DNA from: Bacillota bacterium
Lineage (GTDB): Bacteria; Bacillota; Desulfitobacteriia; Desulfitobacteriales; JAJXUE01
NCBI GenBank assembly: GCA_021811155.1
Contig: JAJZPO010000022.1
Coordinates: forward strand, 1 to 37,452
DNA length: 37,452 bases
Direction of reading: 5' to 3'
Positions within the stretch are counted from its first letter, which is position 1. Every line of letters starts with the position of its first letter. The notes beneath the pieces were generated by a model, which was not told where the DNA came from, searched no databases, and saw nothing but the letters and a program-made list of their open reading frames with translations. A program made the position numbers and the translations under genes. Positions 884 to 28,618 of this stretch are shown here, one piece after another.

Positions 884-3800
884 CTACTGCAGGATGCCGG
901 TCTCGATAGCGCTGTACACGCTGTCGCTCACTGCCGGCGCTCCGCCCAGGATATACGCCTTGACGAACATCTGAGGATTGCCCGTGATGAAGCTGCCGGC
1001 GCCTGAGGGCAGGGAGTTGGTTCCGGTCAGAATCAGCGCAGCGCCTTCGTGCGCGGCGAACGCGGCTCCGGCCAGAGCGTCAGGATAGTTGTCGCCGGTG
1101 GCGAAGACATAGTTGGCTTCGTCATTGGCGTAGGTGTTGAAGATCTGGCTCGCTGTCGCGTAGCGGTCCTCACCGCCCAGTCTGGTGACGCTGGTAATTC
1201 CAGACATCCCCTGCAGGGAGGAGAACAGGGAGTCGGAGACTACTGCCGAGCTGCCCAGCACCGTGATGTTGCTGATGCCCAGGTCCTTAATGACTGCCTG
1301 GGTGGAGGGATCAAGGCTGTTGCCGTCTGTCAGCAGGATCGGGGTATGGCTGCGGGCCGCAAAGGAGGCTGCAGCCAGGGCATCCGGGAAGTTTAGGCCA
1401 TTGGCCAGGAAGACCTTGCCGTTCATGCCGGACTTATTGGCTACCGCACGGGCGATGCTGGCGGAGGTTTCAAACCGGTTCGCCCCGGCGTAGCGGGTGA
1501 CCGTCAGGCCGGCGTTCTGCAGGGAGCTGAACACACTGTCGCTGATAACCGCGGTGCCGCCCAGGACCAGAGCTTTCGTGGCATGCAGGCGGGCGATTTC
1601 AGCGCTTACGGCAGGATCAAGGGCGCTGCCGCCGGTGAGCAGGATCGGAGCGTCATACGAGGCGGCCAGCACGCTGCCGGCCAGGGCATCCGGGAAGTCG
1701 TAAGCGGTTGCGATCACGACCGTGTCGGATTTTGCCCAGCCCTTTTGGCTCATGTCAATGGCTGTCTGGATGCGGTTAGCTCCGGCGACACGGGATACCA
1801 CACTGGACTTGTCCACCGCGTACAGGGTGCCGATTTGGACTGAAACACTTGGCCCAATGAAGTTGACATCGTAGCGGTCACTGGTGGACGGGTTAATGGT
1901 GAACTGGACATTGCCGTTGCCGTCAACCGGGTAGGACCAGGAAGTGAGGCCGACCGTATTTTGATCGTTAATTTTGATTGAGTAGCCGGCACCGGCCAAG
2001 GCGTTGCCATGTGCGTCTTGCACCCGGAAATTAACCGTGTTGTTTTGACCGATGATGAGGCGGTTGCTGTTGGTGATACCTTTCACCGGCTTGACGGTGA
2101 AGGTGGCCACCGGCACTCCATTCAATTTGAGGCTTACAGCATCTGCCTTTTGGTCGTTTAGAATATTGACGTAAACTGTGGTGGAATAAACATTGGTAGC
2201 GGAATTCAAGCTCAGACCACCTGAGCTCGCGGTGATTTGGGTTGCGGTAATGTCTTGGTCTGCCAGACTGAATGTGTTCGCACCGGTTATGGCAGTGTTA
2301 CTGCGTGGGTCGACCGCACTCACGCTCACGTTTTCACCGATACCCGCCGTAAGGAGCATATCGGAGGGAGTGATGGTCAGTTTGGGAGCCACTACGCTGA
2401 TATTGGCTGCGCCGGTGTTGTTCTTGTTGGCTGAAGTGAGGGTGACCGTCAGGTCAGCCACTTTCGGGGCCATGAGTCCGGTAACCTTGAAGCCGATAAC
2501 ATTGCCGGAGCTGTCTGTAGCATCCACAAGCGAGGTGAATGCCACGCTGGCACCGTTGGAGACCGTCAACGCATAGGTCTTACCCGTAATGTCAGCGGCT
2601 TTAATCAGGTTGCCCTGGGCGTCTTTGGCGACGATGACCACATCCTCAGCCAGTCCGGCCACCAGCGTGCTGGTTTGAGACTGGACGCTGAGGGTGGAAG
2701 AACCGACAACCTTGCCCGCGGGAAGCACGGCCATCAAGTTGTTGCTCTGGTCATACACGTTTACGGTCACATTGCCGGCGTTGTCCGCTTGCATAGTTTG
2801 GAAGGTATAGACGCCGTTGTTGACCGGGTGGGTGGTGTCCAGGGTGAAACTGCTGATGCTGGGGTTGGCAGCAAAGGTGCCGTCAGGCTGCTGCACCGCA
2901 AACATGTTGGCAGCGTCGCCCACTACCTGGACGTTGGCGTTGTTGACAGGGTAGCCGTTGGCGTCAAGAACCGTGACAACCGGGGTCACAGCGGAGCCGA
3001 TGCTCCGGGTACCGAAGTTGTAGCTGACCTGGTAGCCGGTCACAGCAGCAGTCGCCGCGGCGTTGACAGGAACCGCGTTGGTGCCGATCAGGGCGCCGAG
3101 AGTCACTGTCACTTTCCCGCCTTGCTGAGGATTGACCGAGCTGAACACCAGGTCCGTGCTGTCGACGTTGACGTTGACGTTGCTACTTACGGAAATGCTT
3201 TTGCTCTTGTCAGCGTTGTAAAGCGCCGGGGTTTGCGCGTTCCCGGTCAGGGTGCCGGTATAGGTGTCATCGCCGGGCACAGTCACGCTGAGGTTAATCT
3301 GTTTGATTTGCTGAGTGGCGTTCGGGTCCGCCCTAAAGCCGTAACCGTCCTGGTTATAGACGTTGAGGGTGAAGTTGTTGTTAGTGCCAACCGTCAAGCC
3401 TGTGCTGGCGCCGGCGCCGTTGATGTCGGTCAGGTTGGCCGTGAATACCCCGGGGGCGCCCACGCTGAAGCTGGTGCTGCCGGTGTAGTCAGTAATTTCC
3501 GGTGTGCTGCTTGGGTCATAAGTCACAGAGACTGTGACCGTGCCTGTGCCCGCAAAGGTTACCTGGGACAGGTCCAGAGTGCTGGTGGTTTTGGCCACCA
3601 CTTTGCTGTACACACCGTTTGCCGATGTCGAATTGTCGGTGTCAAAGCCCGCGAGGGTATTGACGTTTTGCATGCCGACGCCGGTGATGGTGTAGGTGAG
3701 GGTCTGTGAAGTGGCAACCAGGCTGCCGTCCGTCTTGGTCGGGTCAAGCACTGTGATGGCCTGGCCTGCAGCCGGTACGGCGTTGCCGGTCACGCTAGCT

Positions 3801-4474
3801 TTCGCAGCCTTGACCGTCAGGGTGTTTAACCCATTGACGCTGAAGGTGCCGTAAGGGGTATAAACCCCTGCGTTCAGGGTGCCATAGTCGTACACCGCTG
3901 CGGCAGTAAGGGTCACGGTTTTGCTGAAAGCGCCGTTCGACGGGATGATGGAAACGGCGTCGGCCGTCACTTCCGTGCGGGAGCCGTCCGCGTTCAGCAG
4001 TGTGGGAACAAAATAGACATTCTCATCGACTCCAGTGCCATCGCTTTTCAGCAGGGTACCGGAGAAAGTGACGCTGTCCCCAATTTTCATGGGGTTTGGA
4101 ACTGACATGGTAAGGTTGTATTTAGAGGTAATTTTGACCGGATTGGTTACGCCCACAACGCTCAGCGTGTAGACGCCTTCCGTGCCAAAGGAGTAGGTAA
4201 AGCTGAAAGTTCCGGCCGCGCTGGTAATCTCGTTAACCGGGGTTGCAGTGCCGCTGGGGTCTTTCATTGTAACCGCAGCACCGGCCAGGGCCTTGCCGTC
4301 TGTGCCGAGAGCGGTGCCACTGACGGTGGCTGTTTGCCCTACCGCTACGCTGCTGACATTCAAAGTGACCTTCGAGTAGTCAGGGAGGGCGGCAAATACA
4401 GACTGGATTGGCAACATAGTCAGCACCATGGCGATGAGCGCAAGAATAGCCAAGGGCTTTTTGGTCTTTCTCAT
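884..4474 (-). CDS. large exported Ig-like protein with C-terminal CWB2 anchor
   Basis: A surface protein of 1196 residues. Residues 1-28 form a signal peptide (MRKTKKPLAILALIAMVL... ending SVFA). Residues 30-890 are a long run of Thr/Ser/Val-rich bacterial Ig-like modules resembling Big and carboxypeptidase-regulatory folds. Residues 893-1196 are three CWB2 repeats, seen from FPDALAG, FPDALAA and YPDALAG, and the VLGG/VLGS-x-AVVSDS motifs. CWB2 modules anchor proteins to wall polysaccharide, so this is probably a structural or adhesive wall protein. I chose the ATG at 4474 because GAGAGGAG lies 11 nt upstream, the same spacing as in the paralogue at 37026, and the two signal peptides align. 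An in-frame ATG at 4537 with GAGGGG 4 nt upstream would add 21 residues and cannot be excluded. Its leader is shared with the 37-kb gene. Confidence 0.9.
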   Translation of the reverse strand: MRKTKKPLAILALIAMVLTMLPIQSVFAALPDYSKVTLNVSSVAVGQTATVSGTALGTDGKALAGAAVTMKDPSGTATPVNEITSAAGTFSFTYSFGTEGVYTLSVVGVTNPVKITSKYNLTMSVPNPMKIGDSVTFSGTLLKSDGTGVDENVYFVPTLLNADGSRTEVTADAVSIIPSNGAFSKTVTLTAAAVYDYGTLNAGVYTPYGTFSVNGLNTLTVKAAKASVTGNAVPAAGQAITVLDPTKTDGSLVATSQTLTYTITGVGMQNVNTLAGFDTDNSTSANGVYSKVVAKTTSTLDLSQVTFAGTGTVTVSVTYDPSSTPEITDYTGSTSFSVGAPGVFTANLTDINGAGASTGLTVGTNNNFTLNVYNQDGYGFRADPNATQQIKQINLSVTVPGDDTYTGTLTGNAQTPALYNADKSKSISVSSNVNVNVDSTDLVFSSVNPQQGGKVTVTLGALIGTNAVPVNAAATAAVTGYQVSYNFGTRSIGSAVTPVVTVLDANGYPVNNANVQVVGDAANMFAVQQPDGTFAANPSISSFTLDTTHPVNNGVYTFQTMQADNAGNVTVNVYDQSNNLMAVLPAGKVVGSSTLSVQSQTSTLVAGLAEDVVIVAKDAQGNLIKAADITGKTYALTVSNGASVAFTSLVDATDSSGNVIGFKVTGLMAPKVADLTVTLTSANKNNTGAANISVVAPKLTITPSDMLLTAGIGENVSVSAVDPRSNTAITGANTFSLADQDITATQITASSGGLSLNSATNVYSTTVYVNILNDQKADAVSLKLNGVPVATFTVKPVKGITNSNRLIIGQNNTVNFRVQDAHGNALAGAGYSIKINDQNTVGLTSWSYPVDGNGNVQFTINPSTSDRYDVNFIGPSVSVQIGTLYAVDKSSVVSRVAGANRIQTAIDMSQKGWAKSDTVVIATAYDFPDALAGSVLAASYDAPILLTGGSALDPAVSAEIARLHATKALVLGGTAVISDSVFSSLQNAGLTVTRYAGANRFETSASIARAVANKSGMNGKVFLANGLNFPDALAAASFAARSHTPILLTDGNSLDPSTQAVIKDLGISNITVLGSSAVVSDSLFSSLQGMSGITSVTRLGGEDRYATASQIFNTYANDEANYVFATGDNYPDALAGAAFAAHEGAALILTGTNSLPSGAGSFITGNPQMFVKAYILGGAPAVSDSVYSAIETGILQ

Positions 4475-4907
4475 GTAGTGTTTTTCTCCTCTCTTTTTTT
4501 CTGGGGTTTTGGTCTGCGGGTCCGGATCCGCACTCATCCTTCCCCTCTAGCTGCTTGCAGCTTTCTCCTCCTGCTACACCCCCCTTACATTCGCACAAGC
4601 TTTAGACATTGCGCAATATCTAAAGGTATCCACTGCCCCACCTTGGTGCATGGAGGCGTCCCCCCCTAAATTTGTCAACTGGGGGTGGTTTACCCTTTAG
4701 ACTAGCGATTAATGAAGAAACCCCTTGCAGGTTCCAACATTGTTTATAGGTATTCTTTTTAAAATATGATAATCCTGCAATTGTCGGAATAAAATTTGGA
4801 AAAAGCTCTAAATATTTTCGACACGTTTCTACATCATATAACTTAACTGTTTTGTACGTTCTTGCGGCCAAGCCGCAGAGCTCTGGTTTCTTACAGGGGG
4901 ATTGGTC
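4475..4907. other. 433-bp intergenic region: amidase 3' end, AT-rich stretch, CWB2 leader
   Basis: There is no convincing gene. The right part (about 4720-4860) is much more AT-rich than its surroundings and probably holds the promoter of the gene starting at 4474; no clean -35/-10 pair could be fixed. The left part carries the structured, conserved leader described separately. A short GC hairpin (TGCGGC/GCCGCA at 4863-4877) follows the amidase stop but lacks a T-run, so I do not call it a terminator. An 83-codon open frame at 4620-4871 overlaps the leader and resembles no family. Confidence 0.6.
4561..4702 (-). promoter_or_regulatory. structured 5' leader of the Ig-like/CWB2 gene (riboswitch-like, type unknown)
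   Basis: On the minus strand, 4685-4702 can pair with 4618-4633 in a stem of about 15 bp with one bulge and a small internal loop. It encloses a second G/C-rich hairpin (ACCCCC...GGGGG). The 3' arm (CCTTTAGA, 4619-4626) can instead pair with TCTAAAG just downstream (4600-4606), forming a near-perfect 26-nt palindrome at 4600-4625. The block 4561-4617 aligns closely with 37115-37164 upstream of the other large CWB2 gene. I did not recognise a known riboswitch class. Confidence 0.5.
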
Positions 4908-6515
4908 TTAATATCCCTCAAATACCAAAATTCCGCGGTATATACCCAATGCGGCGCTGCTCCGGTAGGCAGCTGAAGCGAGCAGTTGTTCTTCTGTTGG
5001 GTTGGAAATAAAGCCTACTTCCACCAGTACCGCCGGCATCACAGTATTCTTGATAACGTAAAAGGGAGCGTCTTTGACCCCGCGGTCATGCAGACTGTCA
5101 AGACCCAGCTGCTGCGCCAGTTCGGCCTGTATATTCTTGCCCAGCCTCTGGGACTGGCTTGAGACGGGGTTCTTTGAACTGTAATAGGTCTCTGTCCCTG
5201 CGGCGCTTTGGCTGGTGTAAGAATTGTTGTGAATACTGACGAACAGGTTCGCTTTAGCATCGTTGGCAAGTTTTACTCTGGCCTGGAGATCGGGGAGTTC
5301 ACTGTAGCCCGCCCCCGTTGGCGGAGTATCGCTGCTGCGCGTCATCACTACCGTGGCTCCTGCCTTGCGCAAGAGATCCGCCAGGTTCAGGCCGATGGCC
5401 AGGGTGTTGTTTTTTTCCAGCGTGCCGGAGGGGCCCATAGCCCCGGGATCCGGTCCGCCGTGCCCCGAGTCAACAACTATAGTTGAACCGGCTAACAGGT
5501 AAGACGGCTGGACAACCCCTTCTACCACACTCTGAACCTGAGCGGAGATGGCCGCAGTGCTGCCAATCAGATTTACCACCATGTTTCGCTCCGCCGCGTT
5601 ACCCATGACAGAATAACTCACTGCCGGCAAGGAGGCTGTCGCTGTGAGAAAGATCGGGGCATTCTGCCTTGCCGCCAGCGCTCCTGCCACCAGACCGTCC
5701 GGGAAGTCTTCTCCTGTTACCAGGTAGGCCTGAGGCGCAGCCTGACTCCCCGCCGGAGCTCCCGGCAGCTTGTCCTGGGCAAAGAGGTCAAACTTTGCTG
5801 CAGTTTCGTAGCGGTCACTGCCGCCGATCCGGTTGACATTGGGCAAGCCAGTGATAACCGCATCCGCGATGGCCGCCTGACTGCCAAGCACCAGGGTCTG
5901 AGCCGCACCCAACTTAGCTAACTCAGCGCCTGTGGCAGACGGCAAGGCTTTCGCGCCGGTGAGCAGAATCGGAGTGCCGGTAACCGCGGCGTAAGGACCG
6001 GCTGCCAGGGCGTCCGGAAAATTCTCGCCGCTGGCTAAGATCACCTGACCGCTGCTCCCCAGCTTATCCGCGACCAAAGCGGCCGTGGCATAGCGGTCGC
6101 TTCCGCCGATGCGTTCGACGCTCAATCCCGCCTTGGTTAATGTGTCTGCAATTGCTTGCGACAAGGCTTTGGTACTGCCGAGCAGAACCACATGCTTAGC
6201 CTGCAGGCGCTTGATTTCACTTAACGCTCTCGGGTCAAGACTGCCGGGGTTGGTAAGGAGAATCGGCGCTCCCAGCCGGTAGGCCAAGGGTACGGCAACC
6301 AGGGCATCGGGAAAGTCATCGGACCTGACAAGAACAACGTTATCCGAGGTCTGCCAGCCGTTCTGGGAAACGCTGATTGCTGTGTCGATGCGGGTTGGGC
6401 CCGACATCCTCTGAGTCTTCTCTGTCAGTGGGGCAGCCTGTGCCATTGTCCCGGCAGCCAGCCAGAATAAGAGTAATAAACATGCTGTGGCTGCCCGCCT
6501 AACGTGTTTCTGCAA
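4908..6515 (-). CDS. CWB2-anchored N-acetylmuramoyl-L-alanine amidase (Amidase_3)
   Basis: A wall-bound autolysin that hydrolyses the bond between N-acetylmuramic acid and L-alanine in peptidoglycan. It has 535 residues with a signal peptide at 1-28 (ending AQA). Three CWB2 repeats span about 36-335, and a zinc amidase domain spans 344-535. Visible zinc/active-site residues are H352 in DSGHGG, E367 in LEKNN, H429 in SIHNN and E499 in LVEVGF. The start is a TTG; GGGGGTGA lies about 6 nt upstream and the TTG leads directly into the basic n-region of the signal peptide. It lies 71 nt downstream of the subtilase gene with no terminator between them, so the two are probably co-transcribed. The domain order, anchor first and enzyme last, is opposite to that in the subtilase. 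Confidence 0.93.
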   Translation of the reverse strand: MQKHVRRAATACLLLLFWLAAGTMAQAAPLTEKTQRMSGPTRIDTAISVSQNGWQTSDNVVLVRSDDFPDALVAVPLAYRLGAPILLTNPGSLDPRALSEIKRLQAKHVVLLGSTKALSQAIADTLTKAGLSVERIGGSDRYATAALVADKLGSSGQVILASGENFPDALAAGPYAAVTGTPILLTGAKALPSATGAELAKLGAAQTLVLGSQAAIADAVITGLPNVNRIGGSDRYETAAKFDLFAQDKLPGAPAGSQAAPQAYLVTGEDFPDGLVAGALAARQNAPIFLTATASLPAVSYSVMGNAAERNMVVNLIGSTAAISAQVQSVVEGVVQPSYLLAGSTIVVDSGHGGPDPGAMGPSGTLEKNNTLAIGLNLADLLRKAGATVVMTRSSDTPPTGAGYSELPDLQARVKLANDAKANLFVSIHNNSYTSQSAAGTETYYSSKNPVSSQSQRLGKNIQAELAQQLGLDSLHDRGVKDAPFYVIKNTVMPAVLVEVGFISNPTEEQLLASAAYRSSAALGIYRGILVFEGY

Positions 6516-6586
6516 TTAGAATCACCCCCGCTACTGGTATGATGCTTTGACTTTTGCTGTGACGGATCGCCCAGAGGCTATTCCTT

Positions 6587-9500
6587 TCAGTTCACAAGCC
6601 CGTTTACAGTGTCAACCACCGACTGGGGAACAGCCGCTTCGGACCCCAGGGTTACAATATCGTCCACTTTGCCCTTGCTGCCTGCCAGAAAACTGCTGAC
6701 CTCCGGCTCTAGCATAGCGCCGTCCACCAGAACTATGGCGTTCCCGCCCCTTGCCGCCAGGGCGGAACCGGCCAGGGCATCCGGAAAGTTCTCTCCTGTG
6801 GCGACATAAATAGCAGCCAGGTTGAGCCCAAGACCGCGGTTTATCTCAACCGCGGTCTGGTACCTGTCAGCGCCCCAATAGCGGTTTGCTCCCGGCAGCT
6901 TGGCGGCCACGCTGTCGCTGACCACCGCAGCGCTTCCGACAACGACAGTCTTTGTGACTCCCAGGTCGCTGAGGGCGTTTTGGGTGGCGGCCGGCAGCGA
7001 GTCTTGTGCGGTCAGGAGAATTGGCACGCCGTTGAAAGCCGCCCAGGGCGAGACAGCCAAGGCATCAGGGAAATTGAAACCATAGGCGACAACAGCCTCG
7101 CCCCTGCTGCCCAGACAGACGGCTATCTTGGCCGCTGTATCAAAGCGGTCCGCCCCCCCCAGCCTCTCCACGTCTTTGACATAACTTTTAGCCTTCAGGC
7201 TTTGTTCGATGCCGCCGGACAGCGCCTGCGCCGATCCGAGAATAAAAACCTTCTGTGGTCTGAGGCGGTCCAGCTCTGTTTCAACCGCGGGAGTCAGGCG
7301 CGAAGGATTGGTCAGCAAGATGGGAGCGTTGTATTTGTAAGCCAGGGGGGTTCCGGCCAAGGCGTCGGGAAAATCGTCGTCTCTTGCCAGGACTACTGTA
7401 TCAGCCCCGGTTGGCCAGCCGCGCTGCGCCACCGCAATAGCTGTCAGGTCACGGTCGCTGCCGGCAAGTCTGGCAAGCGTTGCTGCGGTGTTCGTAATCG
7501 TAAATTGCGCTGTGAAGGCGCCGGCCATGGCAAGGCCCACCGGGTTTTTCAGGTTTGCAACGACCAATTGATAGGTGTTGCCAACAGTTAGCGGAGTGTC
7601 CGGCTTCAGGGAAATGGTACTGGAATCAAGCAGCGAGACAGTTGAATTCACGGCTGTGCCGTCAGAGCCCTTCAGCAAAACATTGCCGCTGTTCACGCCG
7701 GCTGGGTCAATGTTCTGGTCCATCTTGATGATTACCGTAGGCTCGGTAGTGTTGACCCCGGAGCCGTCGGGATAATTCAAGGACTGTACCCGCGGCGCCG
7801 TGAATGCCGCAAAATTGTACGAGACATCAGGGGTGTCGTTGTAATCATACATGTTGATGTAATACTTGCCCGGATTCAGCCAGATGCTGGTTTGCTCCGT
7901 GACACCCGCATAGCCGGCATTAACATGCTGGATCAGGTTACCGTTAGGCTTAAACACATCAAACGCCGCATCAATTACCGGCCCTCCCATAGCCAGATAG
8001 ACCTGGCCGCCGGTCTTAAGGTTTACCTGGTACCAGTCTATGTCCCCCGCCGGCGTCAGGGTTGCCGAACCTGCTGTGTTGGTGATGTCTTTAGCCTGTT
8101 CCCGGGTATCATTCACCTCCCTGCTGTCTCCGCCGTCAGAAAGCGAGACGGTATATGGATTTGCTGAAAAACCCCCTCCTTCGCCGCTAATCGCCAGATA
8201 ATAGCCGCCTGGCCCGGGGAGGCTGACCTTCGTTTTGAGCTGGCCTCCCTTGCCCGGGTGAAAGCTGTATACGGCCTTCCGGCTGCTGTCCAATACGCTT
8301 AAATCTGCATCCAGATCGCCCGGGGCCTGGAAATCAAGCGTCAAGTTATTGCTTTGGGCCTGGATATAAAAATAATCAACTTCGCCGGGCCCGTCGACGC
8401 GCGCGTTCCAGGTCATCCCCGAATAGACGTGATATGCGGCGCCGGCGGAATTATTCGGCTGAAACCGATCGGCTGCCTGGTAGTTTTGCAGTGTGCGCAA
8501 GACGTCCAGGCGGCCTGCGCCGTATTCAGGATCAGTGCCGGGGTCACCCAGATCAGCTGCTCCTTTTTCGATGCGGTCCGCCACTTGGGCGGGTGTCAGA
8601 TTAGGCTCTTTTCCGAGGAGCAAGGCAGCTGCCCCGGTTACAAACGGCGCGGCCATGGATGTTCCGCTCATACTGGCGTAGCTTGACGCGCCGGTGGAGG
8701 GGTCGTAATAGGTACTCAGTATGTCTGCTCCGGGGGCGCTCACAGCAACCTGCGGCCCTTGAGCGGAAAAAGGCGCCTCAACATCTTCTGAATTGGTTGC
8801 CGCCACGGCGATTACCCCGGGAAACGCGGCGGGATATTCCACCGGTCCGCCATTGTCGTTACCTGCTGCGGCAACCACCACCACACCCTTGGCAACAGCG
8901 TTTTCTACCGCCTGAGCCAGCAAAGGGTCGTAATCCGCCCCGCCGAGACTTAGGTTTACGACCTTTGCCCCTTTAGCTACGGCCCAATCAATCCCAGCCG
9001 TTATGGCATCAGTAGTTATAACCGGGTTTCCCGCCGCATCTAAATAGGCTGCCCTTACCGCAAGTAATTGAGAATTGGGCGAGACTCCGGCTATGCCTGT
9101 CCCGTTGCCCGCAGTCGCTGCCGCGATGCCGGCCACATGGGTGCCGTGACCGACTATATCCTGGGCGTACCCCTCGCTGCGATTCACCGCATCATATTGG
9201 CCCGCGATCTTGTTCCTTAAATCGGGATGGTTAACATCAATGCCGGTGTCGACAATGGCGATTAATGCCCCCGGGCTGCCCGGCGATACGTCCCACGCCT
9301 GGGGAGCATTGATGCGCTGCAGCCCCCACTGCCGGCTGAATTCCTGGTCATTGGGGACAGCGGCAAGGGTGTACCTGTAGTTTGGCTGCACTTGTTTCAC
9401 TGACGGGTCCGATTTCAGTTCCGCCAAGAGACGCTCAGCAGCTTTGGCGTTGGTTGTTTTAATCAGGCTGAACCCCTGCCTTGCTTGCACGCTTTGGATT

Positions 9501-9826
9501 TTGCCGGCATGCCGGGCGATGACCCGGTCGCCGTTATTCCCGTCTTTGAACCGGACCAAAATCTCGTCCGCCGCCGTCTTTGTCCCCGGCGCGGGGTTGC
9601 TTTGGCCTTTTGGCACAGGCTTGGGGAGCAAGACAGGCTGCGGCCCCAGCAGTTCAGCGCCGGGGCCGCTCGAGACAAAGCCTGCCGATTGTGTTAACGG
9701 TTTATCTTGAACGAGTTCATTTTCCCTGCCTGTTGCTGCCGGGGAAATAACCAGATTGGGAAATACCAGCGCCGCGATCGCGAAACTTATAATTTTTTTT
9801 AACCAACGTTTTGACATTTTTCTCAC
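6587..9826 (-). CDS. S8 subtilisin-like protease with PPC, Ig-like and CWB2 domains
   Basis: A secreted, wall-anchored serine protease of 1079 residues. Order: signal peptide (about 1-31); linker; inhibitor-like propeptide (about 85-155, EILVRFKDG... VKQVQPNY); S8 catalytic domain (about 165-445) with D193 in IVDTGID, H227 in GHGTHVAG, oxyanion N323 in AAAGND and S390 in SGTSMAAP; two pre-peptidase C-terminal (PPC) type beta domains (about 450-670); an SbsA/Big_5-like Ig domain (about 675-780); and three CWB2 repeats (784-1079). The longest start is a GTG at 9826. An ATG three codons in (9817) is equally credible, because the only SD (GGAG) sits 3 nt from the GTG and 12 nt from the ATG. It heads a likely two-gene unit with the amidase and is divergent from the GH18 gene. 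Substrates are unknown; processing of surface proteins or scavenging are both possible. Confidence 0.93.
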   Translation of the reverse strand: MRKMSKRWLKKIISFAIAALVFPNLVISPAATGRENELVQDKPLTQSAGFVSSGPGAELLGPQPVLLPKPVPKGQSNPAPGTKTAADEILVRFKDGNNGDRVIARHAGKIQSVQARQGFSLIKTTNAKAAERLLAELKSDPSVKQVQPNYRYTLAAVPNDQEFSRQWGLQRINAPQAWDVSPGSPGALIAIVDTGIDVNHPDLRNKIAGQYDAVNRSEGYAQDIVGHGTHVAGIAAATAGNGTGIAGVSPNSQLLAVRAAYLDAAGNPVITTDAITAGIDWAVAKGAKVVNLSLGGADYDPLLAQAVENAVAKGVVVVAAAGNDNGGPVEYPAAFPGVIAVAATNSEDVEAPFSAQGPQVAVSAPGADILSTYYDPSTGASSYASMSGTSMAAPFVTGAAALLLGKEPNLTPAQVADRIEKGAADLGDPGTDPEYGAGRLDVLRTLQNYQAADRFQPNNSAGAAYHVYSGMTWNARVDGPGEVDYFYIQAQSNNLTLDFQAPGDLDADLSVLDSSRKAVYSFHPGKGGQLKTKVSLPGPGGYYLAISGEGGGFSANPYTVSLSDGGDSREVNDTREQAKDITNTAGSATLTPAGDIDWYQVNLKTGGQVYLAMGGPVIDAAFDVFKPNGNLIQHVNAGYAGVTEQTSIWLNPGKYYINMYDYNDTPDVSYNFAAFTAPRVQSLNYPDGSGVNTTEPTVIIKMDQNIDPAGVNSGNVLLKGSDGTAVNSTVSLLDSSTISLKPDTPLTVGNTYQLVVANLKNPVGLAMAGAFTAQFTITNTAATLARLAGSDRDLTAIAVAQRGWPTGADTVVLARDDDFPDALAGTPLAYKYNAPILLTNPSRLTPAVETELDRLRPQKVFILGSAQALSGGIEQSLKAKSYVKDVERLGGADRFDTAAKIAVCLGSRGEAVVAYGFNFPDALAVSPWAAFNGVPILLTAQDSLPAATQNALSDLGVTKTVVVGSAAVVSDSVAAKLPGANRYWGADRYQTAVEINRGLGLNLAAIYVATGENFPDALAGSALAARGGNAIVLVDGAMLEPEVSSFLAGSKGKVDDIVTLGSEAAVPQSVVDTVNGLVN

Positions 9827-9984
9827 ATTCTCCAGCCATAAATCCCTTTAATGGATTCAATTCGACTCGAAGTTTTATTTTCCTGGGGTCTAAATCTATT
9901 CGGGCAAAAAAAACTGTTGTGCGAGCTGTATTCCTCAGCAAATGTTCTATTTTCTCGGCAGGTATTAAGCAGATTTAACACGAA

Positions 9985-10037
9985 TTTAAGGAGGTGATGC
10001 TTGTTTCAGAAACGGGGGTAAGAAAACGGAGAAAATG
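9985..10037 (+). promoter_or_regulatory. perfect Shine-Dalgarno with mini-ORF before the GH18 gene
   Basis: AAGGAGGTGATG, fully complementary to the 16S rRNA tail apart from its last base, lies about 38 nt before the real start, too far to serve it directly. A TTG 6 nt after its GGAGG core opens a six-codon ORF. An ATG overlapping the SD itself opens a 13-codon ORF whose TGA overlaps the GH18 start codon (ATGA). It may be a coupled leader peptide, or an mRNA-stabilising SD of the kind known in Bacillus. Confidence 0.4.
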
Positions 10038-12035
10038 AAAAAACACAGCTTCATTTTTTTGCTTGCACTGGCGGTTCTTTTAACCGTGCCGGGGATTGCC
10101 TCGGCAGCGCCGGTGATTACCCGCCTCGCGGGTTCAAACCGCTACCAGACCAGTGTGGCTATTGCCCAAAACGGCTGGACCCAGTCCGACACTGTAATTC
10201 TGGCTACCGGCGCAGACTTTCCTGACGCCCTGGCCGGAAGCGTGGTGGCTAGAAAGTATAACGCTCCGCTTCTGCTCACCCCGCCTGCCGGCCTTGATGC
10301 CGGCGTAGCTCAGGAGATCAGAGCCTTGCAGGCCAGGCAGGTAATCATTCTGGGCAGTTCCAGCGCGGTGAGCGACAGCGTGGCCAGGGAGCTTGAGTCC
10401 CAGGGACTTGCCGTCCCGCGGCTCCAAGGGGCCGACAGGTTCGCGACTGCGGTGCGGATAGCCCAAGCGGTGGCAGGCGCTGCCACGCCCAACAGTGTTT
10501 ACCTGGCCAACGGCGATGGTTTTGCTGACGCGCTCAGTGTGGCGCCGGTGGCGGCAAGGTTGCAGCTTCCGGTCCTGCTGACAAGCAGTGATACTCTTCC
10601 TGCGGTTACCCTAAGCTACTTGCTGGATGCCCATGTCAGCCACGTAACCCTGATCGGGAGTTCGGTTGTGATCAGCGACAGCATCAAAACCCTGCTTCAG
10701 TCCAAGGGCATCTCTGTGGACAGGCTGCAGGGCGCCGACCGGTTCGCCACCAACACCGCCGTGGCAGCCAGCTCCGGCTCGGACTTCTCCAATGTTTACC
10801 TGGCTACAGGTTTGGATTTTCCCGATGCGCTGTCCGGCGCGGCCTTGGCTGCTCTGCATAACAGCATGGTGATTCAGGTGCAGCCGAATCAGCTCCCCTG
10901 GTCAACCTACTCCTTCCTCTCCTCGCACCGGGGGGAAATCAAGAATTACTTTATTCTGGGGAGCAGTATGGCGGTGAGCGCTGCGGTGGATTCCTCCATC
11001 AGAACAAATCTGGCCAATCTTATATCCCTCATGTACCTCGGGCCCGGGAATTCCTCGGTTAGCAGCTATGAGTCGCGCCTGAGCGCTGACCCGAATATCC
11101 TTCAGGCCGTCAATTATCTCTCTCCTTCCTGGCTGAGCCTGATTGACGGCAATGGTACGGTGGTTGAAGATTCCCGTTACAGCGCCTCAGATTACCAGAG
11201 CTTTGTGCAGTGGGCCCATGGCAGGGGTTTGAGCGTCCTGCCTCTGGTGGCCAGCCCCTGGGGCAGCGAGGGCCGCGCCTGGGTCAACACAACCCTGCAG
11301 AACGCTCCCCAAACCCTGGTTAATAACCTGGTCTCGCAAGTAAACAGTTTGGGGGCAGACGGGCTGGTCCTCGACTTCGAGGATTTCAGCACATCCTCTA
11401 CCCTGTTTACCAACCTGGTTTCCCAGCTGGCCGACGCCCTTCACGCCCGGAACAAGCTTCTTGTTGTAGCGGTAATGGCTAAAGACGGCGCCAGCGACAG
11501 CTGGCTTGGCCGGTTTGATTATGCCGGCATCACCGCCAAGGCAGACTTGATGAATATCATGACCTATGACAACCATATCGGCGCCAACGACCAAGGTCCG
11601 GTGGCGCCTGTGCCTTGGATCCAGACAGTCCTGGACAGGGCCATCAACACCTACCATGTCCCGTCCTCCCGCATCCTGATGGGCCTGCCCCTCTACGGAC
11701 GGCACTGGTACCTCGACGCTCAAACAGGGAACTGGCTGGAGACGAAACCGCTTTCCTGCCAGGATGCCATGAACCTGGCCGCGTCTAACGGGGCTCCCGT
11801 CCAGCGGAGCGGCTCGGACCCGACTCCCGGCTTTAGCTTCCAGGGACCCTACCCCTCAACCTATCAGGGCTCCGCCACAGGTAATACCCAGCACCAGGTG
11901 TGGTTTGACGACCCGCTGAGCTGGAGCCGGAAGCTGGACTTAGCCGGCCTCAATAACCTCGGAGGCGTGGCCTCCTGGGGCTTCAACTGGCCGGCCCCCC
12001 CTGACCTATGGACCATAATGCAGCAAAAGATATAA
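10035..12035 (+). CDS. CWB2-anchored GH18 glycosidase (SleL/YaaH-like)
   Basis: An exported wall-bound glycoside hydrolase of 666 residues. A signal peptide spans 1-24 (ending ASA), three CWB2 repeats span about 28-325 (FPDALAG, FADALSV, FPDALSG), and a GH18 TIM barrel spans about 332-664. The GH18 signature DGLVLDFE (442-449) is intact, with E449 as the catalytic acid and D447 assisting; MTYD (509-512) and a late SWGFNW tryptophan also match the family. SleL/YaaH relatives are N-acetylglucosaminidases acting on peptidoglycan or cortex, so peptidoglycan is the likeliest substrate; chitin-type glycans are an alternative. The ATG has GGAG just 3 nt upstream, a short spacing, and translation may be helped by the upstream SD and mini-ORF. 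It is transcribed alone, divergently from the protease. Confidence 0.92.
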   Translation: MKKHSFIFLLALAVLLTVPGIASAAPVITRLAGSNRYQTSVAIAQNGWTQSDTVILATGADFPDALAGSVVARKYNAPLLLTPPAGLDAGVAQEIRALQARQVIILGSSSAVSDSVARELESQGLAVPRLQGADRFATAVRIAQAVAGAATPNSVYLANGDGFADALSVAPVAARLQLPVLLTSSDTLPAVTLSYLLDAHVSHVTLIGSSVVISDSIKTLLQSKGISVDRLQGADRFATNTAVAASSGSDFSNVYLATGLDFPDALSGAALAALHNSMVIQVQPNQLPWSTYSFLSSHRGEIKNYFILGSSMAVSAAVDSSIRTNLANLISLMYLGPGNSSVSSYESRLSADPNILQAVNYLSPSWLSLIDGNGTVVEDSRYSASDYQSFVQWAHGRGLSVLPLVASPWGSEGRAWVNTTLQNAPQTLVNNLVSQVNSLGADGLVLDFEDFSTSSTLFTNLVSQLADALHARNKLLVVAVMAKDGASDSWLGRFDYAGITAKADLMNIMTYDNHIGANDQGPVAPVPWIQTVLDRAINTYHVPSSRILMGLPLYGRHWYLDAQTGNWLETKPLSCQDAMNLAASNGAPVQRSGSDPTPGFSFQGPYPSTYQGSATGNTQHQVWFDDPLSWSRKLDLAGLNNLGGVASWGFNWPAPPDLWTIMQQKI

Positions 12036-12278: not shown

Positions 12279-12938
12279 CTAATAGGCTCCTTTGCCGCTG
12301 AAGACTACGAATAACGTTTTCCAGAGAATTTTGAGGTCAAGCCAGAGGCTCCAGGTCCGGACATATTCCAAGTCGTAGGCCATAGTTTCACCCAGGGTGA
12401 GTTCGCTGCGGCCATTGATCTGGGCCAGGCCGGTGACGCCCGGGAGGACCTTCAGGCGCTGACGCTGAGCCGGGCTGTATTTTTGCACAATTTCCGGGAT
12501 CTCCGGGCGAGGACCCACCAGGCTCATGCTGCCCGCCAGGATGTTCAGGAGCTGAGGCAGTTCGTCCAGGCTGGTCTTGCGCAGAAATCTGCCGCTGCGG
12601 GTGACCCTCGGGTCAGACTGCTCTTGAAAGACGAAGTCATTCAGCTCTTTGATCCCCGCCAGTTTACTCTGGAACGCAGCCTCCGCGTTTTGGACCATGG
12701 TCCGGAACTTGAAGATCGTATAGGGTTTGCCCGAGATTCCTATCCTGGTTTGGCGGAAAATTGCCGGCCCGGGTGAATCCAGACGGATCCACAAGGCGAT
12801 CACGAGCCACAGGGGGGACACCAGCAGCAGCAGAACTATGCTCGCAACAATATCAATCAAGCGCTTGAACCAGTAATGCCAGCGGGGCAGATACCCCGCC
12901 GCAGCAGCATCATTATGAGCAGCCAAATTTCGTCCCAT
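12279..12938 (-). CDS. priming polyprenyl-phosphate sugar-phosphate transferase
   Basis: A membrane enzyme that moves a sugar-1-phosphate from a UDP-sugar to undecaprenyl phosphate, starting repeat-unit assembly on the inner membrane face. The 219-residue protein is the short form of the bacterial sugar transferase family (PF02397). It has one hydrophobic segment (about 28-50) after KRLIDI, then DSPGPAIFRQTRIG (54-67), FKFRTM (76-81), and the downstream DELPQLLN, LVGPRPE and GVTGLAQINGR motifs. It lacks the long N-terminal membrane region of WbaP/CpsE, so it resembles PglC or the C-terminal half of WbaP. The ATG has GGGGTG about 9 nt upstream. It is the last gene of the cluster, before a strong terminator. 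The sugar cannot be read from sequence; the dehydratase and the neighbouring aminotransferase make a 4-amino-6-deoxy HexNAc plausible. Confidence 0.92.
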   Translation of the reverse strand: MGRNLAAHNDAAAAGYLPRWHYWFKRLIDIVASIVLLLLVSPLWLVIALWIRLDSPGPAIFRQTRIGISGKPYTIFKFRTMVQNAEAAFQSKLAGIKELNDFVFQEQSDPRVTRSGRFLRKTSLDELPQLLNILAGSMSLVGPRPEIPEIVQKYSPAQRQRLKVLPGVTGLAQINGRSELTLGETMAYDLEYVRTWSLWLDLKILWKTLFVVFSGKGAY

Positions 12939-13012
12939 CCAAAATCACCCCTTCCAGGACACGGGGACGGTTCCGGCGCGAGCCCTGCTGGAATCGAGTA
13001 CGCTGGGAATTG

Positions 13013-14179
13013 CTAGCTCCGGGAACGCTCTGCCACCCGTTTCACCGCTTCAATTACGTCCAGCCTGTCCTGGTCGCTCATCCTGGGATAAAGCGGCAGG
13101 GACAAAATGCGCTCGAACGTTTCCGCTGCCCGGGGAAAATCCCCCGGCTGATAGCCGAATGTGTCGCGATAATACGGGTGGAGGTGCACGGGAATGAAGT
13201 GCACGCTGGTACCGATTTTTTCAGCCTTCAGCTCCTCGATGAACTGATTGCGGTCTGTCTTTAGTTTTGCCAAATTCAGCTTGAGAACGTACAGGTGCCA
13301 GGCGTGGCGGGCATAATCCAGCTCGACCGGGATTTCCAGTTCCGGCATGTTGCCAAAGGCTTCATTGTACTGCGCGGCGATCCCGCGCCTTACCGCCTGC
13401 AGCCTCTCCAGCTTTGCCAGCTGGCTCAAACCCAGGGCAGCCTGAATATCTGTCATATTATATTTATAACCGGGGTAAAGAATTTCGTAAAACCAGGAGC
13501 CGGACGCAGTATAGCGGTTCCAGGCATTCCTGCTCATGCCGTGCAGGCTGAGCACACGTATCTTGTCGGCTAAGCCGGGATCATCGGTGGTAACCATGCC
13601 CCCTTCACCGGTGACCAGGTTTTTGGTGGCGTAGAAAGAAAAGGCCGTCGCGTTGCTGATGGAGCCAATCATCCTGCCTTTGTACTGGGTGTATACGGCG
13701 TGGGCCGCATCCTCCAGCACAAACAGGTTATGCTGCCGGGCCAGGGCCAGGATTCCGTCCATGTCACAGGGATGCCCGGCTATATGAACCGGTACGATGG
13801 CTTTAGTGCGGGAAGTGAGCTTGGCCTTGATTTGCTCCGCATCTATGTTCATGGTTATGGGGTCAATATCGGCAAATACCGGAGTGGCGCCGGTATGGAT
13901 GATCACATTGGCTGAGGCTGCAAAGGTGAAGGGCGTGGTTATGACCTCATCTCCCGGCCCGATTCCGGCCGCGACCAAGGCAAGATGCAGGGCAGCTGTA
14001 CAGGAGTTGACGGCTACAGCGTGTTTGGCCCCCACATAGGCGGCAAATTCCTTTTCAAACTCCAGGGTCTTGGGGCCTTTGGTAATCCAATCAGATTTCA
14101 GACTGTCAACTACCCCGGCGATGTCATCGTCTTCTATCAGGGGCAGGGCGTAGGGCAAAAACTCCTGTCGTCTCGCCAC
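13013..14179 (-). CDS. DegT/DnrJ/EryC1/StrS sugar aminotransferase (ArnB/PseC-like)
   Basis: A PLP-dependent transaminase, 388 residues, expected to aminate a 4-keto sugar nucleotide using glutamate. The family core is complete: NSCTAALHLAL near 58-68, ITTPFTF, the LEDAAHA aspartate, and the Schiff-base lysine K186 in SFYATKNLVTGEGG. The tract YKYNMTDIQAALG is typical of the ArnB/PseC/RfbE branch. I chose a GTG at 14179: AAGGAGG lies 9 nt upstream. The longer TTG start at 14230 would overlap the flippase gene and adds residues outside the family core. With the 4,6-dehydratase at 30015-31955 it could make a UDP-2-acetamido-4-amino-2,4,6-trideoxyhexose. The exact keto substrate and stereochemistry are undetermined. 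Confidence 0.85.
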   Translation of the reverse strand: MARRQEFLPYALPLIEDDDIAGVVDSLKSDWITKGPKTLEFEKEFAAYVGAKHAVAVNSCTAALHLALVAAGIGPGDEVITTPFTFAASANVIIHTGATPVFADIDPITMNIDAEQIKAKLTSRTKAIVPVHIAGHPCDMDGILALARQHNLFVLEDAAHAVYTQYKGRMIGSISNATAFSFYATKNLVTGEGGMVTTDDPGLADKIRVLSLHGMSRNAWNRYTASGSWFYEILYPGYKYNMTDIQAALGLSQLAKLERLQAVRRGIAAQYNEAFGNMPELEIPVELDYARHAWHLYVLKLNLAKLKTDRNQFIEELKAEKIGTSVHFIPVHLHPYYRDTFGYQPGDFPRAAETFERILSLPLYPRMSDQDRLDVIEAVKRVAERSRS

Positions 14180-14207
14180 TTGCGGTCTCCTCCTTACAAA
14201 GTCCAAA

Positions 14208-15638
14208 TTAGCGGGTAACGGTCTTGACAATTCTCATACGTCCCAAAGCATAGATTATCACACCATGAATGTCCTTATCCAGGCGGTCCAATACCAGCAG
14301 GTAGGCGATTCCACCCAGGGCCAGGGCCAGAATCGGGTTGTACCTGGAGAGCAAGTACAGGATAAAGCCCAGAATCAAGCCGGCTATGCCGACCCCGGTG
14401 AGTTGTTTCACAACGTTTACATCATACACCTTTTTGCGCACGGCGAAAAGATAGGCAAGCAAGATGTAGGTCTCGGTGATCAGGGTGGCGGCGCTGGCGC
14501 CGTAGATGCCGTAGCGGGGTATCAGAAACAGGTTCAGGAGTACGTTTCCCACCGCGGCGCTGCCCTGGATAGCTGTGCGGATCCATTGGTTGTCAGTGGT
14601 AGTCAAGACATCCCCAATGGGAAAACTCATGGCTTCCAAGGCGAAAAACCAGGCCAGGATCTTCAGGGCCGGCCCTGCGTTGGCAAAACGGTGGCCGTAC
14701 AGCAGGTTAATGATTGGGTCCGCCAGCAGAAAAAGCCCCAAACTTACAGGCAGACCGATCGCTGCCAGGAACTTGAAAATCTTCTCCACGGTCTGTTTAT
14801 GGGTATCCCGGTTGGTCACGCCCAATTGGTATAGAATTGGGTACAACACAGACGTTAGGATGCCCGGGATGAATAAAAGCACGGAAATAAGCCGGTAAGC
14901 CGCAGCGTAGGTGCCTACCTCCACGGTGCTGCTCATCAGGGACAGCATGAAGGAATCGATCTGGAAGTAGATATAATAAAACAGATAGGCGATGCCAAAA
15001 GGCAGCCCGCCCCTGAGCATCAGCCCCAGGCTTCTGGGTTCGAGCCGCAAGCAGGTCGCCTTTGTTACCGCCCTGTAAAGCAGAAGGGTGATGCAGGCGA
15101 TGACCACGGCTTGGGCCCAGGCGATCTGAATCACGCCATAACGTAGAACAAGCACCACAATTGTTCCCAGCCCGATCAAAAAGGTGGAAAGGAACTGGTA
15201 GATGGCAGCGATATACATCTCCTGACGGGCCTGGAAGTAATTATAGAACATGTTGTTCAGGGCGCCCGCACCGTTAGCCAGGCCGAATATTGCCACCATA
15301 GTGATGACGTTGCTGTCGTACCCAAGCGGTTTGGCGGCCAGCCACATAATCACGTCCACCACCAGAATCAGGAGCGCCCGGAAAACCAGAGTGTTGCCCA
15401 GATAGCCAGGCAGCTTCTTGGGTTCGCGGGAGCCTTCCTGGACGATGTACTGGCCCAGGCCGAAGTCCGTAAACAGGATCACCATACTGACAAAGGTCGA
15501 CGCGGTGGCGTATTCGCCGGAAGCTGCGGGCCCCAGATAACGGGTGACAAAAATCCCCACCACCGCTGAAATGGCCCGGGCCAGCACCGTGGCCACGCTT
15601 AAGGCTACTGTGTTCTTAAAGATGACCCTGGCTTCCAC
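14208..15638 (-). CDS. wzx: Wzx-type polysaccharide flippase
   Basis: A multi-pass membrane protein (476 residues) of the polysaccharide transporter branch of the MOP superfamily, which moves undecaprenyl-PP-linked repeat units across the membrane. The N-terminus (VIFKNTVALSVATVLARAISAVVGIFVTRYLG) is characteristic, and hydrophobic segments recur along the whole length with short charged loops, as expected for 12-14 helices. Translation starts at a GTG at 15638, only 3 nt after the stop codon of the upstream glycosyltransferase, with GGGGTG shortly before; the pair is probably translationally coupled. It is the only flippase in the window, which points to a Wzx/Wzy-dependent rather than ABC-transporter pathway. 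Confidence 0.9.
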   Translation of the reverse strand: MEARVIFKNTVALSVATVLARAISAVVGIFVTRYLGPAASGEYATASTFVSMVILFTDFGLGQYIVQEGSREPKKLPGYLGNTLVFRALLILVVDVIMWLAAKPLGYDSNVITMVAIFGLANGAGALNNMFYNYFQARQEMYIAAIYQFLSTFLIGLGTIVVLVLRYGVIQIAWAQAVVIACITLLLYRAVTKATCLRLEPRSLGLMLRGGLPFGIAYLFYYIYFQIDSFMLSLMSSTVEVGTYAAAYRLISVLLFIPGILTSVLYPILYQLGVTNRDTHKQTVEKIFKFLAAIGLPVSLGLFLLADPIINLLYGHRFANAGPALKILAWFFALEAMSFPIGDVLTTTDNQWIRTAIQGSAAVGNVLLNLFLIPRYGIYGASAATLITETYILLAYLFAVRKKVYDVNVVKQLTGVGIAGLILGFILYLLSRYNPILALALGGIAYLLVLDRLDKDIHGVIIYALGRMRIVKTVTR

Positions 15639-15641
15639 ACT

Positions 15642-16805
15642 CTACACCCCTGCCTTGGCCCGGTTCCGGCTGAGCCCGTGATAAAGGTCAGCCAGCTTCC
15701 TGCCCATCTGTTCCCAGTTCCAGTCCTTCGCTACCGCCTCTTGGCCCCGCATACCCATCTCTTCAGCTTCTGCAGGGTGGTCCAGCAGATAGCGGATGGC
15801 GTTGGCAATCTGCTCTGGGCGGGTGGGGTCTACAATCAGCCCGCAGCGGGCCTTTTCCACATAGCTGCGGATAGGGGGCAGATCGCTCCCCACCACGGGA
15901 ATGCCGCAGGCCATATATTCAAACTGCTTAATAGGGATATTTTTATAAAACTTGGGAACGGGTAGAAGTGTAACCAGACCGGCTTTAGCGGCAGCCACAT
16001 AGCCTGGCACCTTTTCATGGGGCACAGGCCCTACCATATCTACCCATTGGGCCAGATCGTTCTCTGTAATGTAGTGTTCCATATCGACCTTGCATTGCTG
16101 GTCGCTAAAGGGCCCCACGAACACCAGCATGATATTGGGGTGGGTCTTGCGCACTTGATTGACCGCAGCCAGAAGTTCCAGCGGGCCCCGCACGCGGGCA
16201 ATACCCCCTTCATAGATCACGATGTCGCGCCCCGCATACCGGGCCATAAACTCCGGGTCAGGCTTGGCCTTATAGAAGAGATCGGTGACAGGATAGTTGA
16301 AGATGGTGGTAACGTTGCGGTTCAGCTTGCTGTAGCGTTTTTCAATATTGTCGTCGGCGGTGATGATTTGGTCCATGCCTGGCACGAACCAGCGCTCCCA
16401 GCGATCCATGCCCCAGGCAGCCAGAAGCTTCAGCCACCCCGGCAGACGGGTGGTATTGAGCATCATGTCGGGGTAATGTTCGTGGGCATCGAAGATTACC
16501 CTGCGCCCAGTGCGTGCCTGTAAGCGCCTGCCGACCCAGAGCAATTCAGGCTCATGAAACTGGTAGGCATCACAATCAATCATTTCCGCCCGCGCCGCTA
16601 AGCGCCCGAGGACCTTCAAGCGGCTCCACAGGCCTTCCCCCCGCGGCAAACTTATGAGATTAATGCCATCAGCCTCGCTGACAACTTCCGGCCCTGTACC
16701 GAGGATGGTTACGTCTATACCCTGGCGCTTCAGGCTAAGCGCTTCCTTATGATAGATCCTGTCATCTTTTATGTCGTGGGTAGTGGTCAACATGCAAACA
16801 TGCAT
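15642..16805 (-). CDS. GT4-type glycosyltransferase
   Basis: A GT-B glycosyltransferase of 387 residues that probably adds one sugar of the repeat unit on the cytoplasmic face. The N-terminal domain starts MHVCMLTTTHDIKDDRIYHKEAL. The C-terminal nucleotide-sugar domain shows VIYEGGIARVRGP and the KQFEYMACGIPVVGSDLPP loop where GT4 enzymes bind the donor. I reject the longer frame from 17045: its extra 80 residues are low-complexity and would overlap the opposite-strand gene at 16885. The ATG at 16805 follows AAGGAG by about 10 nt. It heads the sub-operon running to 12279. Donor and acceptor are unknown. Confidence 0.88.
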   Translation of the reverse strand: MHVCMLTTTHDIKDDRIYHKEALSLKRQGIDVTILGTGPEVVSEADGINLISLPRGEGLWSRLKVLGRLAARAEMIDCDAYQFHEPELLWVGRRLQARTGRRVIFDAHEHYPDMMLNTTRLPGWLKLLAAWGMDRWERWFVPGMDQIITADDNIEKRYSKLNRNVTTIFNYPVTDLFYKAKPDPEFMARYAGRDIVIYEGGIARVRGPLELLAAVNQVRKTHPNIMLVFVGPFSDQQCKVDMEHYITENDLAQWVDMVGPVPHEKVPGYVAAAKAGLVTLLPVPKFYKNIPIKQFEYMACGIPVVGSDLPPIRSYVEKARCGLIVDPTRPEQIANAIRYLLDHPAEAEEMGMRGQEAVAKDWNWEQMGRKLADLYHGLSRNRAKAGV

Positions 16806-16849
16806 TGGGCCTGTCTCCTTGCCGGCTTTCCTTTTTCTAAGCCTCAAGC

Positions 16850-16855
16850 TATAAT
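16850..16855 (+). promoter_or_regulatory. candidate -10 element (TATAAT) of the inverted glycosyltransferase
   Basis: A perfect TATAAT lies 30 nt before the ATG at 16885 in the 79-nt gap between two divergent genes. The hexamer 17 nt upstream (TTTCCT) is a poor -35 match. GGGAGG then precedes the start codon by 8 nt. A dedicated promoter fits this gene being the only plus-strand member of the cluster. Confidence 0.45.
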
Positions 16856-16884
16856 GAAGTGAATGTTTTCTGGGAGGTATTACG

Positions 16885-18078
16885 ATGCGCATCCTGCTGG
16901 TTTCCCATATGTATCCAAACTCTTTTAACCCTGTGGCCGGCATCTTTGTCAGGCAACAAGCGGAAGCTTTGCAGGCGCTAGGTATTGAGCTTATAGTGAT
17001 TTCACCCGTGCCCTGGGCGCCCGGACCCCTTCGCTTACACCCCAAGTGGGCGCGTTATGCGGAAATACCCCTGGAAGAGGATGTCAATGGCATACACGTT
17101 TTCCACCCACGGGTCCCGGAGTTTCCTCGCTCCTATGGTCTGCGGTTTTCCGGCTGGTTGTATCAAACCAGCGTCAAACCCCTCTTGACAAAGCTGCACT
17201 GTCAGCGGCCATTTGATTTGGTGCACGCCCATGTGGCATTGCCGGACGGCGCCAGCGCCCTCGCTTTCTGCCGCCATTATAACGTGCCCTTGGTACTAAC
17301 TATCCATGGACAGGACTTCTTTCATACCATTCACAGGAACCATGCCTGCCGCGCCAAAGTTCAACAGGTGCTTCAGGCTGCGGAGCGGGTCGTACTGGTA
17401 AGTTCTAAGCTCAGAAGCCTGGCCGAAGCAGAAGGGCTTGTATCAGATATGAGCAAAATAAAGATAGTACATAACGGGGTCGACCTGAAGAGCGTTTACC
17501 AAGGCGAAAACCCGCTGCAAGCCGCCTATGCCGGTAAACAATTGGTACTATCAGTCGGATATTTAATCAAGCGCAAAGGACATGCCTTCATGCTGGAGGC
17601 AATTTCCCGCCTGGCACCGAACTTCCCGCAACTCCGCTACCTGATTGTGGGCAGCGGGGAGGAACAAGAAAACTTGGCATCCCAGGCCAAGGCTCTTGGC
17701 ATAGCTGAGAGGGTCGAGTTTCTAGGCCGGCGCTCCCACCGGGAAGTGCTGCAGTATATGGATGCCTGTGATATCTTCGCCCTCCCCAGCTGGGATGAAG
17801 CTTTCGGCGTGGTCTATGCAGAAGCCATGGCGCAGGGCCGGCCGGTAATCGGCTGCAGGGGAGAGGGTATCGAGGACTTTGTCGTACACGGGAAAACCGG
17901 ATATTTGGCTGAACCCAGAGACACTGAGTCCCTTACCAGGATCCTCGCCAATCTTCTGGCGCATCCCTCTCAAGCAGTAGAAGTGGGACTGGCGGCCAGG
18001 AAAGTGGTGGCAGAAGAGTTTACCTGGGATAAATGCGCCCTTAAGTTAAAGGAAGTTTATGCTTCTATGCTAAGCTAA
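16885..18078 (+). CDS. GT4 glycosyltransferase, inverted relative to the cluster
   Basis: A 397-residue GT-B enzyme with a typical N-terminus (MRILLVSHMYPNSFNPVAGIF). Donor-domain motifs include VLSVGYLIKRKGH near 221-233, the LIVGSGEE turn, and an EX7E motif (E305 and E313 in DEAFGVVYAEAMAQGRPVIG). It probably adds a sugar to the same lipid-linked repeat unit. Everything else between 12279 and 31955 is on the minus strand, so this gene is a one-gene inversion or insertion. It has its own TATAAT, a good SD and a strong terminator at 18149-18186. Its last 9 bases overlap the end of the convergent gene. Confidence 0.9.
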   Translation: MRILLVSHMYPNSFNPVAGIFVRQQAEALQALGIELIVISPVPWAPGPLRLHPKWARYAEIPLEEDVNGIHVFHPRVPEFPRSYGLRFSGWLYQTSVKPLLTKLHCQRPFDLVHAHVALPDGASALAFCRHYNVPLVLTIHGQDFFHTIHRNHACRAKVQQVLQAAERVVLVSSKLRSLAEAEGLVSDMSKIKIVHNGVDLKSVYQGENPLQAAYAGKQLVLSVGYLIKRKGHAFMLEAISRLAPNFPQLRYLIVGSGEEQENLASQAKALGIAERVEFLGRRSHREVLQYMDACDIFALPSWDEAFGVVYAEAMAQGRPVIGCRGEGIEDFVVHGKTGYLAEPRDTESLTRILANLLAHPSQAVEVGLAARKVVAEEFTWDKCALKLKEVYASMLS

Positions 18079-19287: not shown

Positions 19288-19304
19288 GCAATCTCCTCGC
19301 TTAG

Positions 19305-24193: not shown

Positions 24194-24206
24194 CAATAGT
24201 CAACTC

Positions 24207-25508: not shown

Positions 25509-25521
25509 CTTGCACCTCTTA

Positions 25522-26622: not shown

Positions 26623-26659
26623 TGATTTCTCCTCCAAAGTAACGGTTTTGACTATGATG

Positions 26660-27505: not shown

Positions 27506-27521
27506 CTCCTTTTCGCACCCA

Positions 27522-28574: not shown

Positions 28575-28618
28575 GCTTTTCTCTCCCAAATTGGAATTTC
28601 TGCAAAACGACCTTAAAC

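Follow-up and report, generated by a model that had tools for sequence, protein, structure and literature searches.

Related leader elements

Proteins of the S-layer type are often among the most abundant of a cell. Except in a few model species, however, little is known, to our knowledge, of how their messages are kept stable or tuned. The nearest parallel in the literature to the leader described here is the SLH motif, a riboswitch candidate reported from Synergistaceae, Clostridia, and Negativicutes, where it stands before SLH-domain genes (about 60%) (Stav et al. 2019, PMC6429828). In Bacillus thuringiensis, the cry3A message carries a STAB-SD element, an SD-like site in the 5'-UTR where a bound 30S subunit stops RNase J1 (PMC4113751). 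The likeness to STAB-SD lies in an SD-like 5'-UTR site that pairs with the 3' end of 16S rRNA, does not serve initiation, and lies about 100 nt ahead of the start codon in a highly expressed message (PMC4113751). In contrast to cry3A, the site considered here is preceded by a 5' hairpin and an extensive conserved fold, and protection from RNase J1 is a prediction. From comparison of sequences, this leader is an undescribed, folded mRNA element of about 200 bases that precedes S-layer-type CWB2 genes across an order of anaerobes, its novelty being judged against Rfam and open papers.

Two CWB2 genes with a common leader

The window, a stretch of 37,452 nucleotides from a Bacillota bacterium, contains two genes, A and B, with the following features:

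884-4474, minus strand: gene A, a 1196-aa signal-peptide protein with three CWB2 repeats (Pfam PF04122, E 3.9e-53)
4486-4493, minus strand: true ribosome-binding site of gene A, GAGAGGAG, conserved in nearly all relatives
32821-37026, minus strand: gene B, a signal-peptide protein of about 1401 aa with CWB2 repeats and Big_1 domains (Pfam)
37038-37045, minus strand: true ribosome-binding site of gene B, GAGAGGAG

The ATG of gene A is at 4474, as against 4537 in the mechanical ORF list, and that of gene B at 37026; GAGAGGAG does lie exactly 11 nt 5' of both, as the initial annotation had stated. The short words which that annotation had listed as common to the two upstream regions all occur on the minus strand of both leaders in the same order, with GGAG and AGAAAG overlapping by two bases in leader B. 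When the two leaders are aligned locally, the score is 74, compared with a mean of 31 (sd 5.6, maximum 53) for 300 dinucleotide-preserving shuffles. The shared block of about 55 nt is real, but the conserved region is far longer, extending over about 200 bases from the promoter to an SD-like element (about 4577-4776 for gene A and 37126-37310 for gene B). The gene A block (4561-4617) lies inside this conserved leader RNA.

Between the two genes is a polysaccharide assembly cluster (12279-31955) encoding a sugar transferase, a flippase, two Wzy-like proteins, epimerases, a UDP-sugar dehydrogenase, and DegT aminotransferases. Together with the flanking CWB2 genes, the arrangement resembles a surface-layer cassette that comes with its own anchoring polymer. 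Three further CWB2 genes (amidase, subtilase, and GH18; 4908-12035) adjoin gene A without a leader, so the leader marks a subset with the KTKK-type signal peptide. About eight CWB2 genes are present in the genome, and a leader match is found only at A and B.

Distribution and targets of the leader family

The family was searched with a pattern of the 26-base block and then with a covariance model built from 35 leaders. The pattern recovered a near-identical core from most members of the largest sampled genus and from relatives. There is usually one copy per genome, and each core precedes a gene whose start is of the same type. An exact scan for the core among named genomes returned Desulfosporosinus, Acididesulfobacillus, Paradesulfitobacterium, Candidatus Dichloromethanomonas, and other Peptococcaceae; from these organism names, we take the order carrying the leader RNA to be Desulfitobacteriales. 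The covariance model matched 56 of 83 genomes of the class, with up to five matches per genome, some of them weak or on the opposite strand. No true match outside the order was found among 399 genomes drawn from the phylum.

In the 3.2-Mb genome of the window, leaders A (93.1 bits) and B (20.5 bits) are the sole matches at E<=1. Leader B reaches E 0.0024 in a search of the window with filters off, where opposite-strand or unrelated sites score at most 12.9 bits; it is a weak, strongly diverged family member. A clear orthologue of leader B was sought in 20 near relatives and not found.

All 39 downstream proteins tested against Pfam families contain CWB2 and, on visual inspection, have a MKKTKKALASLAIAGM-type signal peptide; they share only about 30-39% identity with gene A. 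The initial annotation had pointed to CWB2, SLH, and LysM genes as places to look; CWB2 genes do lie downstream, whereas no SLH or LysM gene was seen there, and no SLH domain occurs among the Pfam families found. The leader RNA thus keeps a constant position 5' of one gene class. Like the SLH motif, it is a structured leader candidate before S-layer-type genes, Clostridia included, but it precedes CWB2 genes only, a distinction drawn from the target genes (PMC6429828).

A similarity search of plasmids gave no match, and the exact core was absent from viral contigs. The Rfam 15 covariance models gave nothing but chance hits, even with cut-offs of E<=5 for the window and E<=3 for seven loci, in agreement with the earlier statement that no riboswitch class could be recognized. 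Several candidates were discarded: a Chloroflexi locus in which the palindrome occurs by chance without a surrounding leader, two loci from a loose pattern (L068-L069) that are chance matches, and a weak covariance match (G230) that is the start of infA. Three more loose-pattern loci (L065-L067) contain a different Desulfosporosinus repeat. There, GTTTGCNCTGCGTCGTAAGACTGAGCGATGTAC or a near variant is repeated in three Desulfosporosinus-type genomes (L065 1520-1545, L066 1474-1499, L067 1466-1491 (minus)) next to unrelated genes, and is perhaps another conserved RNA.

Promoter and 5'-terminal hairpin

In Bacillus, sigma-H (Spo0H) recognizes the consensus RnAGGAwww-N11/12-RnnGAAT. The 5' end of the conserved region has the following features:

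4752-4776, minus strand: putative sigma-H-type promoter of gene A, AGGA-N17-GAAT (family pattern count)
37285-37310, minus strand: putative sigma-H-type promoter of gene B, AGGA-N18-GAAT (family pattern count)
4711-4741, minus strand: 5'-terminal hairpin P0 of gene A (AAUG-GGAACC...GGUUUC-CAUU), at the predicted transcript start (fold z -3.5)

AGGA-N17/18-GAAT is found upstream of 50 of 77 leaders, where 0.42 would be expected, and the window's own genome encodes sigH (381 bits). Both traits of a sigma-H regulon, the promoter consensus and the sigma factor gene, are present; the likeness to sigma-H promoters is that of the AGGA-N17/18-GAAT pattern in both window genes and most relatives, and the start site is predicted. 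Joint control of the two genes, already proposed in the initial annotation, is supported by their common sigma-H-type promoter and leader RNA.

Just 3' of the expected start, P0 has a mean z of -2.15 over 48 single-sequence folds, on which this hairpin rests. Its two-part stem is formed by AAUG/CAUU and AGAACC/GGUUUCU or by GGUA/UACC and GAGAAGC/GCUUCUC in different clades. As promoter and P0 lie 5' of the block, transcription is predicted to start upstream of it. In a group of Desulfosporosinus paralogues (L106, L110, L115, L116, L128, L143, L148, and L149), sigma-A-like promoters with TTGAAA-N17-TATGTT-like boxes replace the sigma-H type and the leader is kept, which argues that the RNA acts apart from the promoter.

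A covarying fold, P1-P4

Downstream of P0, the leader folds into a multi-helix domain, which is reduced in gene B:

4619-4701, minus strand: domain P1-P4 of gene A, supported by covariation over 75 relatives; P1 pairs 4694-4701 with 4619-4626, P2 pairs 4681-4688 with the 4627-4642 region, and P4 (4652-4665) has a GACG loop
37167-37208, minus strand: reduced P1 domain of gene B, pairing UCUUAGG (37202-37208) with CCUGGGA (37167-37173) around one hairpin (covariance-model alignment), without P3 and P4

Across 75 leaders aligned to the model, two-sided changes occur in 23 of the 27 pairs of P1-P4, a count that none of 500 shuffles reaches, 93.9% of cells are paired, and the covariation score is 0.388 (shuffled mean 0.164, maximum of slid controls 0.172), all figures that are favoured by the fitting of this alignment to the structure. 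An unfitted MAFFT alignment of 35 leaders points in the same direction, with 9 pairs and 0 of 500 shuffles. The GACG loop of P4 is almost invariant. In one divergent leader, L053, P1 and P2 persist in a different sequence (AACUGC/GCAGUU) and the GACG hairpin is missing. At the level of sequence covariation, helices P1-P4 are proven.

The initial annotation had suggested a cis-regulatory RNA or a binding site, to be followed up through homologues and covarying pairs; many homologues and strong covariation in P1-P4 now lend strong support to a structured, cis-acting RNA. The same data bear on whether the two leaders are alike simply because a gene start was duplicated, with no function attached. 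The signal peptide and ribosome site are indeed also common to both genes, but different genera retain the leader, with double compensatory changes, in front of proteins only about 30-39% identical to gene A, and functionless duplication, contradicted by the covariation, is very improbable.

The stretch GGGUAAACC...GGGACGC bears what is presumably a passing likeness to the c-di-GMP-I (GEMM) riboswitch. The helix plan and downstream part are unlike that class, which was rejected since its Rfam model gives no match even at E 5.

The invariant linker and a possible alternative hairpin

The initially annotated block is part of the leader, but most of it is a conserved linker that joins P1 to the SD-like element:

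4591-4618, minus strand: linker of gene A, UAUUGCGCAAUGUCUAAAG..UGUGCGA, almost invariant by alignment column counts and present in all close relatives
37138-37164, minus strand: linker copy of gene B, AUUGCGCCCUGUCUUAAGACUGAGCGA
4600-4625, minus strand: candidate alternative hairpin H5 of gene A, competing with P1 for CUUUAGA (95% of cells pairable)

The most conserved stretch of the family, UUGCGCAAUGUCUAAAG, lies 3' of P1, is almost invariant, and might pair with the 3' strand of P1 to form H5; P1 and H5 are mutually exclusive in principle. A riboswitch or protein-sensing leader is conceivable on this basis, though doubtful: binding to P1-P4 would stabilize P1, and otherwise the 3' strand of P1 would pair with the second UCUAAAG as H5, the exchange altering the accessibility of the SD-like site or exposure to decay enzymes. 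UCUAAAG does occur twice, flanking its own complement, in nearly all members, the computed energies of P1 and H5 are close (mean difference -1.45 kcal/mol, with 40 of 75 within 3), and the P4 loop is strongly conserved. In addition, a leader that has lost the second UCUAAAG (L140) shows two compensatory double changes in P1, as if freed from a double constraint. However, none of the 75 sequences shows a two-sided change in H5 and 19 of them break its inner pair 130-137, neither a coding-strand terminator in leader A nor an element sequestering the ribosome-binding site was recognized, and the targets are all structural surface proteins, with no metabolic gene hinting at a ligand. Somewhat more speculative is a new class of bistable RNA sensor, in which P1-P4 would sense an envelope or growth signal and the exchange of P1 with the UCUAAAG hairpin would set the stability or translation of S-layer-type mRNAs order-wide.

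A terminator-like hairpin is present elsewhere in the upstream region of leader B, and no control was of matching strength. The GTGGC/GCCAC hairpin at 37079-37093, between the SD-like site and ribosome-binding site of leader B, scores as terminator-like on the plus strand.

The linker could also act as DNA or as coding sequence. The palindrome CTTTAGATATTGCGCAATGTCTAAAG, near-perfect over 26 bp in most members, might be an operator for a dimeric regulator joining both genes, the RNA fold being secondary. This is improbable, as positions constant in the right half vary in the left half (position 130 is changed in 19 of 75), the gene B copy is not palindromic, the surrounding P1, P2, and P4 covary as RNA, and the palindrome lies well inside the predicted transcript. 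Marginally less probable still is a short upstream reading frame, AUG-UCU-AAA..., beginning in the linker and controlling the gene through its own translation. Most members do have AUG (GUG once), then UCU and in most cases AAA or AAG, but neither frame nor length is kept (4 to 48 codons, with a stop after 4 in L017, L019, L107, and L108), a control frame is of similar length, no SD precedes the AUG, and gene B has no AUG there. The same start occurs in the chance infA match, a point counted in favour of the frame.

An SD-like site and a proposed 5' stabilizer

The conserved region ends in an SD-like site:

4577-4586, minus strand: SD-like site of gene A, AAGGGGGGUG, not followed by a start codon (energy of the duplex with the 3' end of 16S rRNA)
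37126-37134, minus strand: SD-like site of gene B, GGGGAGGUG

The duplex of AAGGRGGUGA with a general bacterial 16S end has a family mean of -15.9 kcal/mol, taken on alignment columns, compared with -13.0 for the true ribosome-binding site, taken from an automatic site search that picked the wrong stretch in some leaders (e.g., L120, L124, and L032). By the same automatic search, no ATG lies 3-13 nt behind the SD-like site in any of 73 leaders. The STAB-SD trait of an SD-like 5'-UTR site with no start codon behind it is thus present in the family; the site is absent or altered in L133, L134, and L142.

The leader probably protects or tunes messages for surface proteins. Held with middling confidence, the preferred reading is a conserved, cis-acting CWB2 leader RNA that would act as a 5' mRNA stabilizer and translation aid, with sigma-H switching both window genes on together as growth slows. 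P0 would leave decay enzymes almost no free 5' end, the folded P1-P4 domain would block their way, and a 30S subunit parked on AAGGRGGUGA would stop a 5'-to-3' exonuclease, as at the STAB-SD of cry3A. The stabilized message would then serve a protein made in large amounts. Stabilization alone gives no reason for the near-invariance of UUGCGCAAUGUCUAAAG. Also counting against this reading are the few members whose SD-like site is missing or changed, the weakness of leader B and its loss of P3 and P4, and the terminator-like hairpin in the upstream region of leader B. The leader, order-wide, proven by covariation, and with a defined promoter class, would constitute an RNA family absent from Rfam, in hosts that include sulfate reducers and dehalogenating relatives, and is likely a natural example of a 5' hairpin, a folded domain, and a STAB-SD combined.

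By eye, the 3' strand of P4 could pair with the SD-like site. In L053 (657-900), an ATG frame comes after the SD-like site and ends in a stop codon that overlaps the start of the main gene (TGATG), an overlap that suggests translational coupling in that lineage.
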